Source: a virus
DNA: 20,351 nt
Direction: 5' to 3' (one strand)
Virus record (IMG/VR): IMGVR_UViG_3300023284_001866
Coordinates: 1 to 20,351 of that record
In this document: in pieces, positions 7,416 to 14,942 of the stretch
How the letters are laid out: each line of letters starts with the position of its first letter
Position numbering within the stretch: the first letter of the stretch is position 1
Position numbers and translations under genes: made by a program
Notes under the pieces: generated by a model
Seen by the model: the letters and a program-made list of their open reading frames with translations, nothing else
Told to the model about the DNA's origin: nothing
The model's database searches: none

Positions 7416-7955
7416 CTAGTCACTCCTCTTAATCCGGTTCATCTGATTCTCAACTGGCTTGGCCTCGATGGTGATCGTCTTCTGTTGATCGTGCATTAGG
7501 ACTGCACTCTGCTCCCACTTTTCCTCGCTCTTAGCGGTCATGGGGAGGACGGCAATACCGAAGTTGATATTCGTGTCACCGCCGCGCGCATTCTCTCGAT
7601 ACACACCGGGCTTCAAACCACGCAGGACGAACATCAGCAACGTGTCCGAATAATTGGTCTTGTAGCCAGCCACCTCACCCTTGTAAAACACGGGCTCAAG
7701 TACGCCCTCTGTGGCACGCCGGATCGCCTCTGCCTCCAGAACGTGGGCCGCCGCCTCCAAAGCTTCATCCCATGCCTCAGCGAACTCCTCGTCATTGCGG
7801 CGGAACTTCTGGAAAGTAGATGTGTCTGTATGGCCACAAGCGCGTGCAGCCTCAGCCACCTTGCCAGTCTTAGCCAGGATACTCAGGAACACATTCCGCT
7901 TCTTCTTAGCGAGAACCACTCGGCTGTGCTTGTGCTTTGCGAGGCTCTGAGCCAT
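7416..7955 (-). CDS. Small terminase subunit-like HTH protein, 179 aa
   Basis: The N-terminal part (about 22-67) has a helix-turn-helix with FLSILAKTGKVAEAARACGH, then STFQKFRRNDEEFAEAWDEA. This is the usual DNA-binding pattern of phage small terminase subunits. After a helical ALEAAAHVLEAEAIRRATEG comes FYKGEVAGYKTNYSDTLLMF and a VLRGLKPGVYREN oligomerisation-type tail. Small terminases form rings that recognise packaging sites on phage DNA and hand it to TerL. This one is oddly placed far downstream of TerL, while another TerS-like pair is immediately upstream of TerL. Either could be the working packaging subunit. Confidence 0.7.
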   Translation of the reverse strand: MAQSLAKHKHSRVVLAKKKRNVFLSILAKTGKVAEAARACGHTDTSTFQKFRRNDEEFAEAWDEALEAAAHVLEAEAIRRATEGVLEPVFYKGEVAGYKTNYSDTLLMFVLRGLKPGVYRENARGGDTNINFGIAVLPMTAKSEEKWEQSAVLMHDQQKTITIEAKPVENQMNRIKRSD

Positions 7956-11807: not shown

Positions 11808-12021
11808 TGTATTTCATGACTCTGTTGAGCATAAAATCAAGAAGAACATCCGAGTAGAGTTGCATCTCCCCCACCACAATTTCTTTGAGAACTATTTTGT
11901 GAATAGTACCCTCCGTAGCACGGCGTATGGCCTCCTCCTCCAGGAGTAAGAACTCAGCTTCTCTCTTTTGGATCAGGTCAATCAGATCAAAATCAGAAAT
12001 TTGATTAAAGTTCTCAGCCAT
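11800..12021 (-). CDS. TerS C-domain-like protein, 73 aa (second half of a split TerS?)
   Basis: A 73-residue protein starting MAENFNQISDFDLIDLIQK. Its EEEAIRRATEG followed by VLKEIVVGEMQLYSDVLLDF and MLNRVM parallels the C-terminal half of the 179-aa TerS-like protein at 7416-7955 (AEAIRRATEG, then YSDTLLMFVLRG). It has no helix-turn-helix of its own; that part is in the preceding gene, overlapping by 8 bases in another frame. Together the two look like a small terminase split into DNA-binding and oligomerisation halves. It overlaps the TerL start by 8 bases, so translation is coupled. Confidence 0.7.
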   Translation of the reverse strand: MAENFNQISDFDLIDLIQKREAEFLLLEEEAIRRATEGTIHKIVLKEIVVGEMQLYSDVLLDFMLNRVMKYNG

Positions 12022-12295
12022 GCCGCGCCTCTAACTGCTCGTAGGCAAGCGTGCGCGCGGCCTGGAGACGCTTTCGCACCTCAGCCTGAAGCTTCTCTTC
12101 CAAAAATTCTAGATAGCACTCAATGAATGAACGGTCGAACTTGATGTTCGAGCAACACAGATTGGTCAGCTCTTGTGAGTTCATGCCAGCACGCCGACAT
12201 GCTTTGTTCCAATCCCCATGTTCACGCATCTCGCGCAAAAATCGGTCGGGGCGAACGTCTACAACGTCTCCCATTTGGTCCTCCAGGCCCAGCAT
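12014..12295 (-). CDS. TerS N-domain-like HTH protein, 93 aa (first half of a split TerS?)
   Basis: The protein reads MLGLEDQMGDVVDVRPDRFL, then REMREHGDWNKACRRAGMNS followed by QELTNLCCSN and a helical FLEEKLQAEVRKRLQAARTL. The NKACRRAGMNSQEL part fits a helix-turn-helix as in small terminases. The protein ends after the linking helix with ARHG-stop, and the next ORF supplies the matching C-terminal domain. It lies directly upstream of the TerS/TerL pair as in classical packaging operons. The ATG at 12295 is used; a GTG at 12298 is equally open. The ribosome site is weak (GGACAG). Its promoter is probably at 12358-12386. Confidence 0.7.
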   Translation of the reverse strand: MLGLEDQMGDVVDVRPDRFLREMREHGDWNKACRRAGMNSQELTNLCCSNIKFDRSFIECYLEFLEEKLQAEVRKRLQAARTLAYEQLEARHG

Positions 12296-12349
12296 CACGC
12301 TGTCCAGCGGGGGCGTTACATCACGCGCAGCCCCAATTTGTCATCATCG

Positions 12350-12357
12350 TTAACCAT
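12350..12357 (-). repeat. Isolated copy of the ATGGTTAA motif at the terminase promoter
   Basis: On the minus strand ATGGTTAA occurs here, immediately downstream of the predicted -10 box (12358-12363) and upstream of the terminase genes. Ten more copies are clustered at 19520-19991. I noticed no other exact copy in the window. Confidence 0.5.
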
Positions 12358-12386
12358 ACTATTTCACAAAAGAGCCGGGTTGTCAA
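12358..12386 (-). promoter_or_regulatory. Promoter of the terminase/head operon
   Basis: On the minus strand a perfect TTGACA (12381-12386) is followed after 17 bases by AATAGT (12358-12363, 4 of 6 matches to TATAAT). It lies just downstream of the 117-aa gene's stop and about 60 bases before the first TerS-like ATG. Confidence 0.5.
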
Positions 12387-12398
12387 ACCGCCCCCTTG

Positions 12399-12752
12399 CT
12401 AACTCTTATGCTGAGAGACCACAATCTTGTATTGCACAGCAGTTAGGATACCGGTGGGGGTCGCACGAACCGCGCGGATCGGCCCAGCTACGCTAACGGT
12501 TCCCGACTCATTTGCCTCAATTATATTAGCTGGCGGGGCCTCGAAAACTTTTGAAGTCATGAGAAGCACTTCGAATAGAACTGTCCCACCCGTAGCCAAC
12601 ACTCCTCCCCCATTAGCATCGAAAAACTGCACCGCAAAGAAATTATGAGGGTGATTGAGACTAAGGTTGGTCACCACAGCCACCGCTGCGACTGAGGTCA
12701 AGCCTGATTCCTTAATGAGTGTATTATCCCCCTCAAAAACAAATTCGGCCAT
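12399..12752 (-). CDS. Hypothetical beta-rich protein, 117 aa
   Basis: Starting at ATG 12752, the protein reads MAEFVFEGDNTLIKESGL, then SVAAVAVVTNLSLNHPHNFF and AVQFFDANGGGVLATGGTVL, ending KIVVSQHKS. Alternating strands, glycines and no charged helices suggest a small virion beta-sandwich such as a decoration or capsid-associated protein. A longer frame extends to 12893, but it would read through a plus-strand promoter and touch the tRNA-Cys gene, so 12752 is preferred although its ribosome site is poor. It is the first gene of the minus-strand virion block. Confidence 0.6.
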   Translation of the reverse strand: MAEFVFEGDNTLIKESGLTSVAAVAVVTNLSLNHPHNFFAVQFFDANGGGVLATGGTVLFEVLLMTSKVFEAPPANIIEANESGTVSVAGPIRAVRATPTGILTAVQYKIVVSQHKS

Positions 12753-12803
12753 AATGAAATACTTATCCCCATGCTTGGCGTTGGTAAACCTCTGCTGCCC
12801 CAA

Positions 12804-12830
12804 AAGATACCAAGAAATCCCTTTTGTCAA
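12804..12830 (-). promoter_or_regulatory. Possible minus-strand promoter for the 117-aa gene
   Basis: On the minus strand TTGACA (12825-12830) is followed by TATCTT (12804-12809) with a short 15-base spacer. It would be divergent from the strong plus-strand promoter at 12850-12878. The spacing is below optimum. Confidence 0.35.
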
Positions 12831-12849
12831 GCTACCCCGGAGAAAGAGG

Positions 12850-12878
12850 TTGACTTTCCCTCGGATTGAGAGTATAAT
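12850..12878 (+). promoter_or_regulatory. Strong promoter for the tRNA/HNH island
   Basis: TTGACT (12850-12855) and a perfect TATAAT (12873-12878) are separated by 17 bases. The predicted start is only a few bases before the tRNA-Cys gene. The TATAAT is followed by ACGC, similar to the two strong minus-strand promoters of the window. Confidence 0.85.
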
Positions 12879-12893
12879 ACGCTTTGAATTCAT

Positions 12894-12967
12894 GGTGCGG
12901 TGGCAGAATGGCTATGCGCCAGGTTGCAACCCTGGTTTTAATGCTGGTTCGAATCCAGTCCGTACCT
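12894..12967 (+). tRNA. tRNA-Cys (anticodon GCA)
   Basis: A full cloverleaf is visible. The acceptor stem GGTGCGG pairs with CCGTACC (one G-T). The anticodon stem is CCAGG/CCTGG with loop TTGCAAC, giving anticodon GCA. The T arm is GCTGG, TTCGAAT, CCAGT. The discriminator base is T, but the next bases are CAT, so CCA is not encoded, unlike in the two tRNA-Gly genes downstream. An HNH cassette follows directly and its far side carries the missing TCCA. CCA would have to be added by the host enzyme. Confidence 0.93.
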
Positions 12968-12968
12968 C
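12961..12968 (+). repeat. Direct repeat CGTACCTC, copy 1 (tRNA-Cys 3' end)
   Basis: These 8 bases form the end of the tRNA-Cys acceptor strand plus the next base. An identical copy lies at 13411-13418, directly after the HNH stop codon. Confidence 0.8.
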
Positions 12969-13002
12969 ATTATCCTTGCCATATCAATTACGGAGGTAAA
13001 TG

Positions 13003-13410
13003 ATGAGCAAAGGAAATAAGAAAAAAGCCGCTGCTCTCGGAATGTCTTATGGGGCCGCAGCTAACAGACTCAGAAAGATGATTCTTTTCTCCTTGGTCTG
13101 TCGTCTGAAATTAAACGTTTGTTATCAGTGTGATAGTGAAATTCTCTCTGTGAATGATATATCCATTGAGCACAAGAATCCTTGGATTCAGGCGGATAAC
13201 CCGGTGGAGAGTTTCTTTGATCTGAACAACATAGCGTTCTCTCACTTGAGTTGTAACATAGGAGCCGCTTCTAAGCCAAATAAAAAGTATTTCACTGAAG
13301 AAGAAAAACACCGAGGTCAAATAAGAAGAAATAAAAAACGGTGGCAGTCTTTGGGGAAAGAAGAACAGCAGAAAATAAGACGAGAACAATACTTACGAAC
13401 AGGGAAATAA
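13003..13410 (+). CDS. HNH endonuclease inserted at the tRNA-Cys 3' end
   Basis: A 135-residue basic protein. The HNH core has the zinc knuckle CYQC (Cys40, Cys43), the catalytic-type IEHKN (55-59), Asn75 in FDLNNIAFS, and HLSCN (His81, Cys84). Lys/Arg-rich ends (MSKGNKKKAAA at the start, KRWQSLGKEEQQKIRREQ near the end) would bind DNA. The second ATG at 13003 is chosen because GGAGGT lies 5 bases before it, while ATG 13000 is too close. It is transcribed with the tRNAs. It is flanked by CGTACCTC repeats, so it is probably a homing-type mobile gene that targets the tRNA gene. Its AT-richer codon use differs from its neighbours. Confidence 0.88.
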   Translation: MSKGNKKKAAALGMSYGAAANRLRKMILFSLVCRLKLNVCYQCDSEILSVNDISIEHKNPWIQADNPVESFFDLNNIAFSHLSCNIGAASKPNKKYFTEEEKHRGQIRRNKKRWQSLGKEEQQKIRREQYLRTGK

Positions 13411-13418
13411 CGTACCTC
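13411..13418 (+). repeat. Direct repeat CGTACCTC, copy 2 (followed by CA, completing TCCA)
   Basis: It starts immediately after the HNH stop codon. It continues CGTACCTCCA, which is what the original tRNA-Cys 3' end with an encoded CCA would look like. Confidence 0.8.
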
Positions 13419-13466
13419 CAAGTTCCTTATCTCCTGGTTGGCCGAAAGGCTGGCTGGGAGGCCAAT

Positions 13467-13541
13467 GCGGATGTAGCTCAGTGGTAGAGCGTCTGGTTGC
13501 CAATCAGAAGGTCGAGGGTCCGAGCCCCTCTATCCGCTCCA
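13467..13541 (+). tRNA. tRNA-Gly (anticodon GCC)
   Basis: The acceptor stem GCGGATG pairs with TATCCGC. The D arm is GCTCAGTGGTAGAGC. The anticodon stem TCTGG/TCAGA encloses loop TTGCCAA, giving anticodon GCC. The T arm is GAGGG, TCCGAGC, CCCTC. Discriminator T and an encoded CCA end at 13541. Confidence 0.95.
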
Positions 13542-13607
13542 GTTTCCGGGAAGTGCATTGAGACTTATAAGACCGAAAGGGCTCTGCACTCCGTTTTCAC
13601 GATAAAT
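13542..13607 (+). other. Structured spacer between the two tRNA-Gly genes
   Basis: AGTGCA and TGCACT form a closing stem. Inside it lie GAG/CTC pairing, a CTTATAAG palindrome and a CCGAAAGG hairpin with a GNRA loop. A similar GCCGAAAGGC hairpin lies in the preceding spacer (13441-13450). It may be part of a longer structured transcript or just tRNA-processing signals. Confidence 0.45.
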
Positions 13608-13681
13608 GCGGCCTTGGCCGAGAGGTTAGGCGACAGGCTTCCACCCTGTTCACATCGGTTCGAATCCGATAGGCCGCTCCA
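13608..13681 (+). tRNA. tRNA-Gly (anticodon TCC)
   Basis: The acceptor stem GCGGCCT pairs perfectly with AGGCCGC. The anticodon stem ACAGG/CCTGT encloses loop CTTCCAC, giving anticodon TCC. The T arm is ATCGG, TTCGAAT, CCGAT. Discriminator T and an encoded CCA end at 13681. Confidence 0.95.
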
Positions 13682-13684
13682 AGT

Positions 13685-13908
13685 TTGGTCCATACCAAAG
13701 ACAGGGCTTAGTAGGGTCGCTACCAAAACTCCCTCGAAGGGATTCCTGGACCAATTCAAACTCAGTCCCGGCCCTTACGACCGGGTGGTGCCCCTTGCTA
13801 CAAGGGCAGAAGAATTGGGTGATCCTACCGAAAGGATGGGCCGCTATGCATGCGCAGGACTTACCTGCTTTGAAAAGCCCGTGAGATATGGCCACGTGGC
13901 GCCCAATT
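13685..13908 (+). ncRNA. Candidate structured non-coding RNA after the tRNA genes
   Basis: No convincing gene lies here, but stems are dense. TTGGTCCA (13685-13692) pairs with TGGACCAA (13747-13754); an alternative TTTGGT/ACCAAA hairpin (13684-13699) competes with it. Other hairpins are GTAG/CTAC, CCCGG/CCGGG (13768-13785), TGCCCCTTG/CAAGGGCA (13789-13808), ATCCT/AGGAT (13822-13837) and GCAGG/CCTGC (13854-13868). AATTGGG (13813-13819) pairs with CCCAATT (13902-13908), closing a second domain. Long structured phage RNAs near tRNAs are known (GOLLD, ROOL), but I cannot match this to either; it is much shorter. It could instead be an mRNA leader for the next gene. Confidence 0.5.
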
Positions 13909-13942
13909 TCAATTTCTTACATAAAGCTGAAAGGCGAAACCC

Positions 13943-14224
13943 TTGGATAATCTGAATATCAAGGGTATTCGTGACGACGAGCCGTTTCGCCATGGCAAGA
14001 AAAGCCGTGGCCGCAAGCAGTTCGTGCTTCAGACGCGCTGGGCTCCAGGCCCCAATTATCGAAAAGAGGCTATGGGCTGGCTATGGCGCAGTCTCAGAGA
14101 GTGGCACACTCACAGCCGCTATCATACCGAATCTGCGCGTGATCAGGCATATACCGCCCTGGTCAAAAAGGCTGAAGTCTGCCACCTGCGCGAATGGTCC
14201 TACATGGAATATAGGAAGGTGTGA
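13943..14224 (+). CDS. Hypothetical phage protein, 93 aa (TTG start)
   Basis: A 93-residue basic protein reading MDNLNIKGIRDDEPFRHG, then GRKQFVLQTRWAPGPNYRKE and AMGWLWRSLREWHTHSRYHT, ending MEYRKV. It has many Arg, Lys, Trp and Tyr and no membrane segment. The TTG at 13943 follows GAAAGG by about 8 bases. Another frame (GTG 13971) is open over the same DNA but its composition is poorer. The stop overlaps the next ATG, a good sign for coupled translation. Function is unknown. Confidence 0.6.
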   Translation: MDNLNIKGIRDDEPFRHGKKSRGRKQFVLQTRWAPGPNYRKEAMGWLWRSLREWHTHSRYHTESARDQAYTALVKKAEVCHLREWSYMEYRKV

Positions 14225-14409
14225 TGAAGATCTTCTGGGTTGAGGACTTCCTGAGCCGCGAAGTCATTGAGAACAAATACTATTCCACTCGCGAGGAAGC
14301 TGCCGCCCGCCGCAATGAGCTGGGTTACGGCCTTGTGAAGGAGTGGAAATCGCAGAAAGCCACAGGGAAGCTGGCCGAATGCCACAAGAAATGGGCCGAT
14401 CAGCCGTAA
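14224..14409 (+). CDS. Hypothetical small phage protein, 61 aa
   Basis: A 61-residue charged protein starting MKIFWVEDFLSREVIENKYY, then a helix STREEAAARRNELGYGLV, ending KKWADQP. The start TGATG overlaps the previous stop, with AGGAAGG 4 bases upstream. Its 3' end overlaps the 3' end of the minus-strand HNH gene by 10 bases (convergent). Function is unknown. Confidence 0.7.
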   Translation: MKIFWVEDFLSREVIENKYYSTREEAAARRNELGYGLVKEWKSQKATGKLAECHKKWADQP

Positions 14410-14864
14410 TATTTCAACATAGAATCCAACCAATTCCCTACCGCCAGTACTTCCTCAGCCGTGGCATCACACTTAATCATGTTAGCCCGGTTTGAAATAA
14501 TCATAACGTTTCCAGGTATATAACCCAAAGCGTTGTCGATTCGGTCTAAAGAAGGCGAGTTTCCTACGGGGAGACCTGCACAATCCCAATCTAAGACAAT
14601 ACCCAAAACAGGACATATATCTGGAAGTGGATTGATGTCATCTATCGTGATGGAGAAATCCATCTCTTTAAGCTTGGCACGCTTCTTGGCGCGATGCAGC
14701 ATCCCACGAGACTTTGCAACCCTTTGATTCTTGGCGTAACGAGTAGCCTGATCAATCTTCTTGCACGGCGTGCAATAGATGTCCAGCCGATCTCGGGTAG
14801 TGGCAGCCGGAGGAAACTGAGATGCATCCTTCACCTGCTTACAAATGTTACATCGTTTTTCCAT
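14400..14864 (-). CDS. HNH endonuclease (free-standing homing type)
   Basis: A 154-residue protein. Two CxxC pairs at the N terminus (Cys5/8 and Cys31/34) form a zinc-ribbon. A basic helical segment follows (AKSRGMLHRAKKRAK). The core has PDICPVLGI, SPSLDRIDN (catalytic-type LDRID, 106-110), and the characteristic GYIPGNVMIISNRAN (114-128) with AT-x-EE near the end. Such genes are mobile in phage genomes. The ATG at 14864 is chosen; a TTG at 14873 is also open. The ribosome site is weak. It lies at the end of the minus-strand accessory block and meets a plus-strand gene tail to tail. Confidence 0.9.
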   Translation of the reverse strand: MEKRCNICKQVKDASQFPPAATTRDRLDIYCTPCKKIDQATRYAKNQRVAKSRGMLHRAKKRAKLKEMDFSITIDDINPLPDICPVLGIVLDWDCAGLPVGNSPSLDRIDNALGYIPGNVMIISNRANMIKCDATAEEVLAVGNWLDSMLKYYG

Positions 14865-14942
14865 GCCATTCAACTATAATTCAAGTAGAAAATAGGACCG
14901 ACCCCTGCATCACACAGAAAATCGGCCCTGGAGGAGTTGACG

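Follow-up and report, generated by a model that had tools for sequence, protein, structure and literature searches.

How does a lone nuclease gene come to stand at the very end of a tRNA gene, with the tRNA whole in front of it and a second copy of the tRNA's 3' end directly behind its stop codon? The question is raised by a phage contig of 20,351 bases, hereafter the window, in which an HNH endonuclease gene separates a tRNA-Cys gene from two tRNA-Gly genes. The features of this locus are listed below; L002 and L004 are IMG/VR relatives of the window.

12894 to 12968, plus strand: tRNA-Cys (GCA), found by ARAGORN and by Rfam RF00005 at 54.6 bits (gathering threshold 29), fold intact
12961 to 12968, plus strand: upstream repeat copy CGTACCTC, made up of the acceptor 3' strand, the discriminator, and C74
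12969 to 13410, plus strand: inserted cassette of leader and HNH gene, not in L002 or L004, borders as in 18 family members
12972 to 12999, plus strand: leader with the ribosome-binding site GGAGGT
13000 to 13410, plus strand: HNH endonuclease of 136 amino acids, PHROG 23251, from its open reading frame, a profile match, and invariant residues
13411 to 13420, plus strand: tRNA-Cys 3'-end remnant CGTACCTCCA, directly behind the HNH stop codon
13421 to 13466, plus strand: original spacer with hairpin, TGGCCGAAAGGCTGGC, directly 3' of tRNA-Cys in L002 and L004
13467 to 13541, plus strand: tRNA-Gly (GCC), ending TCCA (ARAGORN, Rfam)
13608 to 13681, plus strand: tRNA-Gly (TCC), ending TCCA (ARAGORN, Rfam)

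A tRNA-Cys gene with two 3' ends

The 3' end of the tRNA-Cys gene reads CCGTACC-U73-C-A-U; the gene continues with CAT and therefore has no encoded CCA. Across the 20-kb window, both strands included, CGTACCTC occurs only at 12961-12968 and 13411-13418 (chance expectation, 0.45). The first base of the rear copy is the base after the HNH stop codon, and with the CA that follows it forms CGTACCTCCA, a complete tRNA-Cys 3' end with CCA. An 8-mer repeated anywhere in the flanks would be unremarkable without a constraint on position (p about 0.10); the repeat is significant because of its fixed position, at the tRNA end and at the stop codon, and because it recurs in relatives. A cassette of about 442 bp occupies the 3' end of the tRNA-Cys gene, and, with its acceptor strand provided by the upstream copy, the tRNA remains complete. 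The first-pass annotation had described this arrangement correctly: the broken CCA, the tRNA-Cys end repeated after the HNH stop codon and running on into CCA, the tRNA kept intact (as the ARAGORN call and the Rfam score attest), and the TCCA ends of both tRNA-Gly genes. Rfam reports three tRNAs only within 12000-14400, and the tRNA-Cys is contiguous. We considered a group I intron in the tRNA gene and ruled it out on that contiguity and on the absence of any intron RNA in Rfam over the same interval.

Several other open reading frames of the window, all on the minus strand, bear on its gene content. The tail-protein-like frame at 12399-12893 (PHROG 16185), opposite in strand to the tRNA-Cys gene, starts directly at the first base of that gene. 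The frame at 14400-14873 is Endonuclease VII/HNH-like (PHROG 3322, 1035) and is a third nuclease candidate near the tRNA array; a GIY-YIG endonuclease frame at 1636-2196 (Pfam PF01541, 38 bits), amid structural genes, is a second homing-endonuclease candidate. The frames at 7416-7955 and 12014-12298 both match the terminase small subunit family PHROG 4044, and the latter, a partial relative of 94 amino acids, lies shortly before the large terminase gene.

Relatives of the window with an empty site

A search with the terminase gene recovered the IMG/VR relatives L002 to L004 at 80-83% identity, together with the more distant L005. In all four, the two tRNA-Gly genes are present and the tRNA-Cys gene ends in TCCA, which is the ancestral end that had been supposed for the window. 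No HNH gene stands between the tRNA-Cys and tRNA-Gly genes in L002 and L004. The spacer hairpin (GGCCGAAAGGCTGGC in L002) lies immediately 3' of the tRNA-Cys CCA in these two relatives and 3' of the second copy in the window. When the flanks of the window were joined and aligned to L002 and L004, they gave an uninterrupted tRNA-Cys gene plus spacer, the sole extra being 9 bases between CCA and the hairpin. The proposal that about 442 bp (roughly 12969-13410) had been inserted at the tRNA-Cys 3' end is thus upheld by their absence from L002 and L004. The first-pass annotation had also proposed looking for an HNH-less array in related phages. Such arrays exist, with CCA directly joining the hairpin spacer, whereas the literal joined string CGTACCTCCAAGTTCC was not obtained: L002 and L004 are too diverged for it, and the proof for the window is therefore one of alignment, not identity. 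Because the tRNA-Cys bodies are likewise too diverged, an own duplicate and an imported, foreign 3' end cannot be told apart in the window itself. A search for a close relative carrying the same tRNA-Cys found none, and a DNA search of annotated phages with the window returned tRNA cross-matches only and no relatives.

The HNH protein and its relatives

The window protein matches the profile PHROG 23251, "HNH endonuclease" (E value of 2.2e-26, residues 9-111), and scores below threshold against Pfam HNH (15.5 bits; cut-off, 21.4). The family-invariant residues are all present, namely, CxxC, SIEH, N76-I77, S80-H81, and C84-N85, and they cover the HNH core of zinc CxxC, E-H, N, H, and C-N. Its AlphaFold model (pLDDT of 89) has an HNH fold, for which the best PDB match is the Gme HNH nickase 4h9d, at a weak Foldseek E value of 0.016; a search of solved structures by sequence gave no significant match. 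No GIY-YIG domain was matched in the protein, which falls outside the SegB family.

An IMG/VR search with the window protein alone returned one distant match, and we instead used two alignment-based scans of IMG/VR and phage records, which yielded a family set of 145 distinct genes. A scan of genome contigs gave two matches only; one of them, L176 from an Acidobacteriota MAG, has the tRNA-end repeat. A tRNA 3' end lies within 90 nt upstream in 62 of the 145 relatives, with most isotypes represented, and the relatives in annotated phages stand regularly 14-60 nt behind a tRNA. In the HNH tree, tRNA-adjacent genes occur in both halves, the half of the window and the half with most of the phage records; a well-supported clade (L105-L175), mostly from marine contigs, lacks any tRNA nearby. 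Close HNH relatives belonging to a single Pseudomonas clade (support 100/97) are hosted by Ser, Trp, and Gln tRNAs.

The family shows further peculiarities of placement. Five phage contigs (L096, L103, L137, L199, and L200) each hold two family HNH genes, mostly each at a different tRNA. In L084, L092, L094, L095, L101, L108, L126, L137, and L147, the HNH gene fills the spacer exactly, its stop codon reaching or overlapping the 5' end of the downstream tRNA. In L103 (2881-2999), the tRNA-Pro downstream of the HNH gene is preceded by a tandem copy of its own 5' part (ATACGGGGTGTAGCACAGTTGGTAG), placed after the HNH stop codon.

The tRNA-end repeat recurs across the family

In 18 family members, the window included, the tRNA 3' end is repeated at the HNH stop codon. 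The carriers, arranged by tRNA, are as follows.

tRNA-Cys: the window
tRNA-Pro: APT65, L097
tRNA-Gly: 1.007.O, L106
tRNA-Gln: Ep020
tRNA-Trp: Bitten
tRNA-Asn: L100, L192, Roomu-2, SalP219
tRNA-Ser: L210, L218, L242, 37F, phiPsa300, PPSC2
Acidobacteriota bin: L176

In nearly all of these carriers, the upstream copy breaks off part-way through CCA, and the downstream one runs into a full CCA. The borders are the same across many tRNA species and unrelated phages, with the left at C74/C75 of the tRNA and the right at the HNH stop codon. The rear copies start at tRNA position 57 to 68, in the T-loop, the T-stem, or the acceptor strand, and never further 5'. We scored the repeat at 51 independent tRNA-adjacent loci, with CCA excluded from the score and the expectation taken from swapped partners; we had settled the test before adding the Pseudomonas and Salmonella cases. 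A score of at least 7 was reached at 9 of the 51 loci against 0.32 expected, directly at the stop codon in 8 of the 9; in L095, one of the nine, the match lies 19 nt past the stop codon and is probably due to chance. A score of at least 8 was reached at 7 loci against 0.08 expected, and at none of 457 other tRNAs of the same phages. Given this recurrence at many tRNAs in unrelated phages, the HNH cassette is best read as a mobile gene that has specialised on tRNA genes.

Two findings weigh against this reading: a recognisable rear copy is absent in 46 of the 64 tRNA-adjacent relatives in the tree set, and the clade without a nearby tRNA is large. A comparison of the Felixounavirus VpaE1 with Andreotti likewise places the HNH gene exactly between tRNA-Tyr and tRNA-Asp, with no repeat remaining. 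Unconstrained direct repeats around HNH genes that have no tRNA were also tried and were rejected as mostly A-rich chance matches. At two loci, the copies differ at the discriminator, which is U in the tRNA-Ser and G in the rear copy of L218:204 and G in the tRNA-Gln and A in the rear copy of L262:997; either difference could alter charging if the tRNA is used.

Occupied and empty sites weigh the alternatives

Presence and absence of the gene between matching flanks, as for a free-standing homing endonuclease, is seen between the window and L002/L004, between phiPsa300 and psageK4, and between 1.007.O and 1.243.O/BUCT_X002. In the Pseudomonas phages phiPsa300 (L264) and psageK4 (L269), the aligned flanks of the former overlap on the latter by the 19 bp GATTCCTTTACCCGCTGCC; the difference is therefore one 441-bp insertion with a 19-bp repeat, and the same measure gives 442 bp for the window. 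The phiPsa300 copies do not differ from each other or from the empty site of psageK4, and the PPSC2 copies are identical within that phage although the tRNA ends of PPSC2 and phiPsa300 differ. Since the copies match their own tRNA in both phages, duplication or exchange within the repeat also happens. These two cases are what we would expect if insertion simply copied the phage's own tRNA 3' end, by a staggered cut and fill-in or by template switching, with later mutations diverging the copies and with no tRNA sequence carried by the cassette itself. We regard this explanation as a serious competitor with a sizeable minority share of the probability.

What sets it back is a trio of Vibrio phages. 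In 1.243.O and BUCT_X002, an empty tRNA-Gly gene ends in GTCGTCGGTTCGATTCCGACATGTTGCTCCAATTTTAAGG and has the T-arm CGGTTCGATTCCGACATGTTGCTCCA. In 1.007.O (L087), the tRNA-Gly gene ends in GTCG-AGAGTTCAAATCTCTCATGTTACTCCA and is followed by the HNH gene and then by ATCGACATGTTGCTCCAATTTTAAGG. The front T-arm AGAGTTCAAATCTCTCATGTTACTCCA differs from CGGTTCGATTCCGACATGTTGCTCCA in both stem strands, and the tRNA-Gly end of the empty phages, CGACATGTTGCTCCAATTTTAAGG, is intact behind the HNH stop codon of 1.007.O. The comparison thus shows directly that the T-arm and 3' end preceding the HNH gene in 1.007.O are foreign and that the native end lies behind it. Plain duplication sits poorly with a whole T-arm in which both stem strands have changed together relative to two empty relatives, next to a rear copy that has not changed, and also with the T-stem differences between the two copies in L192 and L210. 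Against the 5' acceptor strand of the tRNA, the rear copy of APT65 and that of 1.007.O form perfect pairs, whereas the front copy has 2 G-U pairs or 1 mismatch (L267 was left out of this comparison). With the front copy foreign and the rear copy native, the cassette can therefore bring its own tRNA 3' end. The earlier claim that the cassette carries a replacement 3' end accordingly stands for 1.007.O and fits APT65, and it gives way to plain duplication in phiPsa300.

The front copy of L100 fits its tRNA better than the rear copy does, as expected for a decayed remnant, and is not diagnostic. As an empty site for APT65, the Lahexavirus phages LAh_8 and LAh_9 were set aside; they have the same tRNA order and a different tRNA-Pro and give syntenic support only. 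DNA searches for HNH-less relatives of L106 and L242 yielded none that were usable.

The cassette could be lost through recombination of its direct repeats, which would leave an "empty" site, and the direction of change is therefore unfixed in each pair. The tRNA-HNH-tail arrangement might then be the old state and the HNH-less phages its excision products, with precise excision restoring CCA. We think this unlikely: within one genus the occupied sites fall at different isotypes, the common state is the empty tRNA, and excision from 1.007.O would not give back the T-arm of its empty relatives without an exchange inside the rear copy. It is more doubtful still that the HNH gene merely sits in permissive tRNA spacers, as SegB and other spacer homing endonucleases do, with the repeat a chance match or an old tRNA fragment. 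Many relatives do fill the spacer between two tRNAs with no repeat, and the 8-bp repeat of the window has its unremarkable p value when position is ignored; against this, the repeats reach 19 bp, end at the CC of CCA, start at the HNH stop codon, and exceed expectation as counted above, and psageK4 provides an exact empty site for phiPsa300.

Prophages and genomic islands that target tRNA genes insert at tRNA 3' ends, restore the tRNA, and leave direct repeats; they need a site-specific recombinase, and each of these much larger elements keeps to a single, fixed isotype. The HNH cassette resembles them in its site, in the regeneration of the tRNA 3' end by the element, and in the direct repeats at its borders, and it differs in recombinase, isotype range, and size. 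Integration by an integrase is the least probable account of all, as only the HNH gene lies between the repeats, with no recombinase (a difference from integrase elements that had been remarked on at the outset), and the isotype targets change among close relatives where an attachment site is normally fixed.

A hairpin in the leader

In the tRNA-type family members, a six-pair hairpin surrounds the ribosome-binding site in front of the HNH gene. Covariation across 27 sequences of the tRNA clade supports it: pairing is complete (100%), double changes occur in 6 of 6 pairs, and slid controls fail. The leader of the window, which lies outside the 27-sequence alignment, is a deviating version with a weak alternative pairing, TTGCC/GGTAA; this inverted match may be the counterpart of the family hairpin. 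The family hairpin is like that of the T4 homing endonucleases whose ribosome-binding site is sequestered (the I-TevI, mobE, and segB type). Hairpins that hide the ribosome-binding site are described for T4 segB and Aeh1 mobE (PMC2988022).

A proposed mechanism

The cassette in the window is probably a free-standing homing endonuclease of the HNH type, one that targets the tRNA T-arm and carries or regenerates the tRNA 3' end, with cleavage as its putative first step. The HNH protein would nick or cut tRNA genes in the T-arm, where the starts of the rear copies at positions 57 to 68 would place a break, and the break would be repaired from a cassette-carrying phage. The two tRNA-end copies would serve as recombination arms, a role suggested by the T-arm GTTCGAxTCC being common to nearly all tRNA genes; by virtue of this shared T-arm, one cassette could move between tRNA isotypes. 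Each move would put a duplicate or donor-derived 3' end before the HNH gene, with the previous end now downstream of that gene, and the CCA missing from the tRNA gene would be supplied post-transcriptionally by the CCA-adding enzyme of the host. A T-arm acting as a homology arm on both sides of the cassette would also account for the close relatives at Ser, Trp, and Gln tRNAs. That the copies are functional recombination arms, and that the unit of T-arm plus 3' end, HNH gene, and second 3' end jumps between isotypes through the universal T-arm, we propose tentatively, as a prospect a little short of even. If this reading is true, the unit alters the 3' halves of tRNAs and sets off reshuffling within the tRNA arrays of phages.

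Comparison with known mobile nuclease genes

In the fungal mitochondria of Allomyces and Glomus, the mORFs found in atp6, atp9, cox2, and nad3 are endonuclease ORFs that bring a replacement C-terminus and leave the native one behind (PMC3630166). The phage cassette is like them in being a free-standing homing endonuclease within a gene, with a replacement 3' part and a native 3' part that persists behind. The mORFs are LAGLIDADG or GIY-YIG nucleases that swap the C-terminal codons of mitochondrial protein genes, whereas the phage cassette is an HNH gene that acts on tRNA genes, at the T-arm and the acceptor 3' strand; with its other nuclease fold, it is no homologue. The mORF-type architecture is present in the window, but its copies are identical, and the replacement is thus seen only in 1.007.O (L087).

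The SegB nuclease was reportedly studied by Brok-Volchanskaya in 2008. It is, like the window cassette, a free-standing phage homing endonuclease among tRNA genes. According to PMC13096335, SegB of T4/T6 is a GIY-YIG enzyme that cuts inside tRNA genes at the motif RAWTSGAAC, and the 3' end of segB shares microhomology with a tRNA 5' end. Its fold is thus GIY-YIG, not HNH, and the available part of that source describes no duplication or swap of a tRNA 3' end. By our reading, the reverse complement of RAWTSGAAC is GTTCSAWTY of the T-loop, and it is in this region that the rear copies begin. Two unrelated nucleases, SegB and the HNH family of the window, may by this analogy have converged on one universal part of tRNA genes.

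The T4 genes mobA-E are, like the cassette, free-standing HNH genes located in spacers; they are not associated with tRNAs, and the available part of PMC2988022 describes no gene-end duplicate for them. Free-standing enzymes of T4 can cleave at a great distance from the place of their own insertion (PMC2988022).

Implications

These data support the insertion of an element, probably a free-standing homing endonuclease, with one refinement: the tRNA end is imported in some cases and duplicated in others. We found no earlier description of tRNA-end duplication by an HNH gene in open-access full texts. That homing endonucleases stand beside phage tRNA genes was already known, as was, more recently, the cutting of tRNA genes by SegB. 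The present addition is an element with fixed borders that inserts into the tRNA gene itself, at many isotypes, and that keeps the tRNA whole by means of a duplicated or swapped 3' end. Occupied and empty phages are at hand as ready pairs, phiPsa300 with psageK4 and Vibrio 1.007.O with 1.243.O. Such an element offers an explanation for part of the disorder of phage tRNA arrays, for the loss of encoded CCA, and for the occurrence of hybrid tRNAs.
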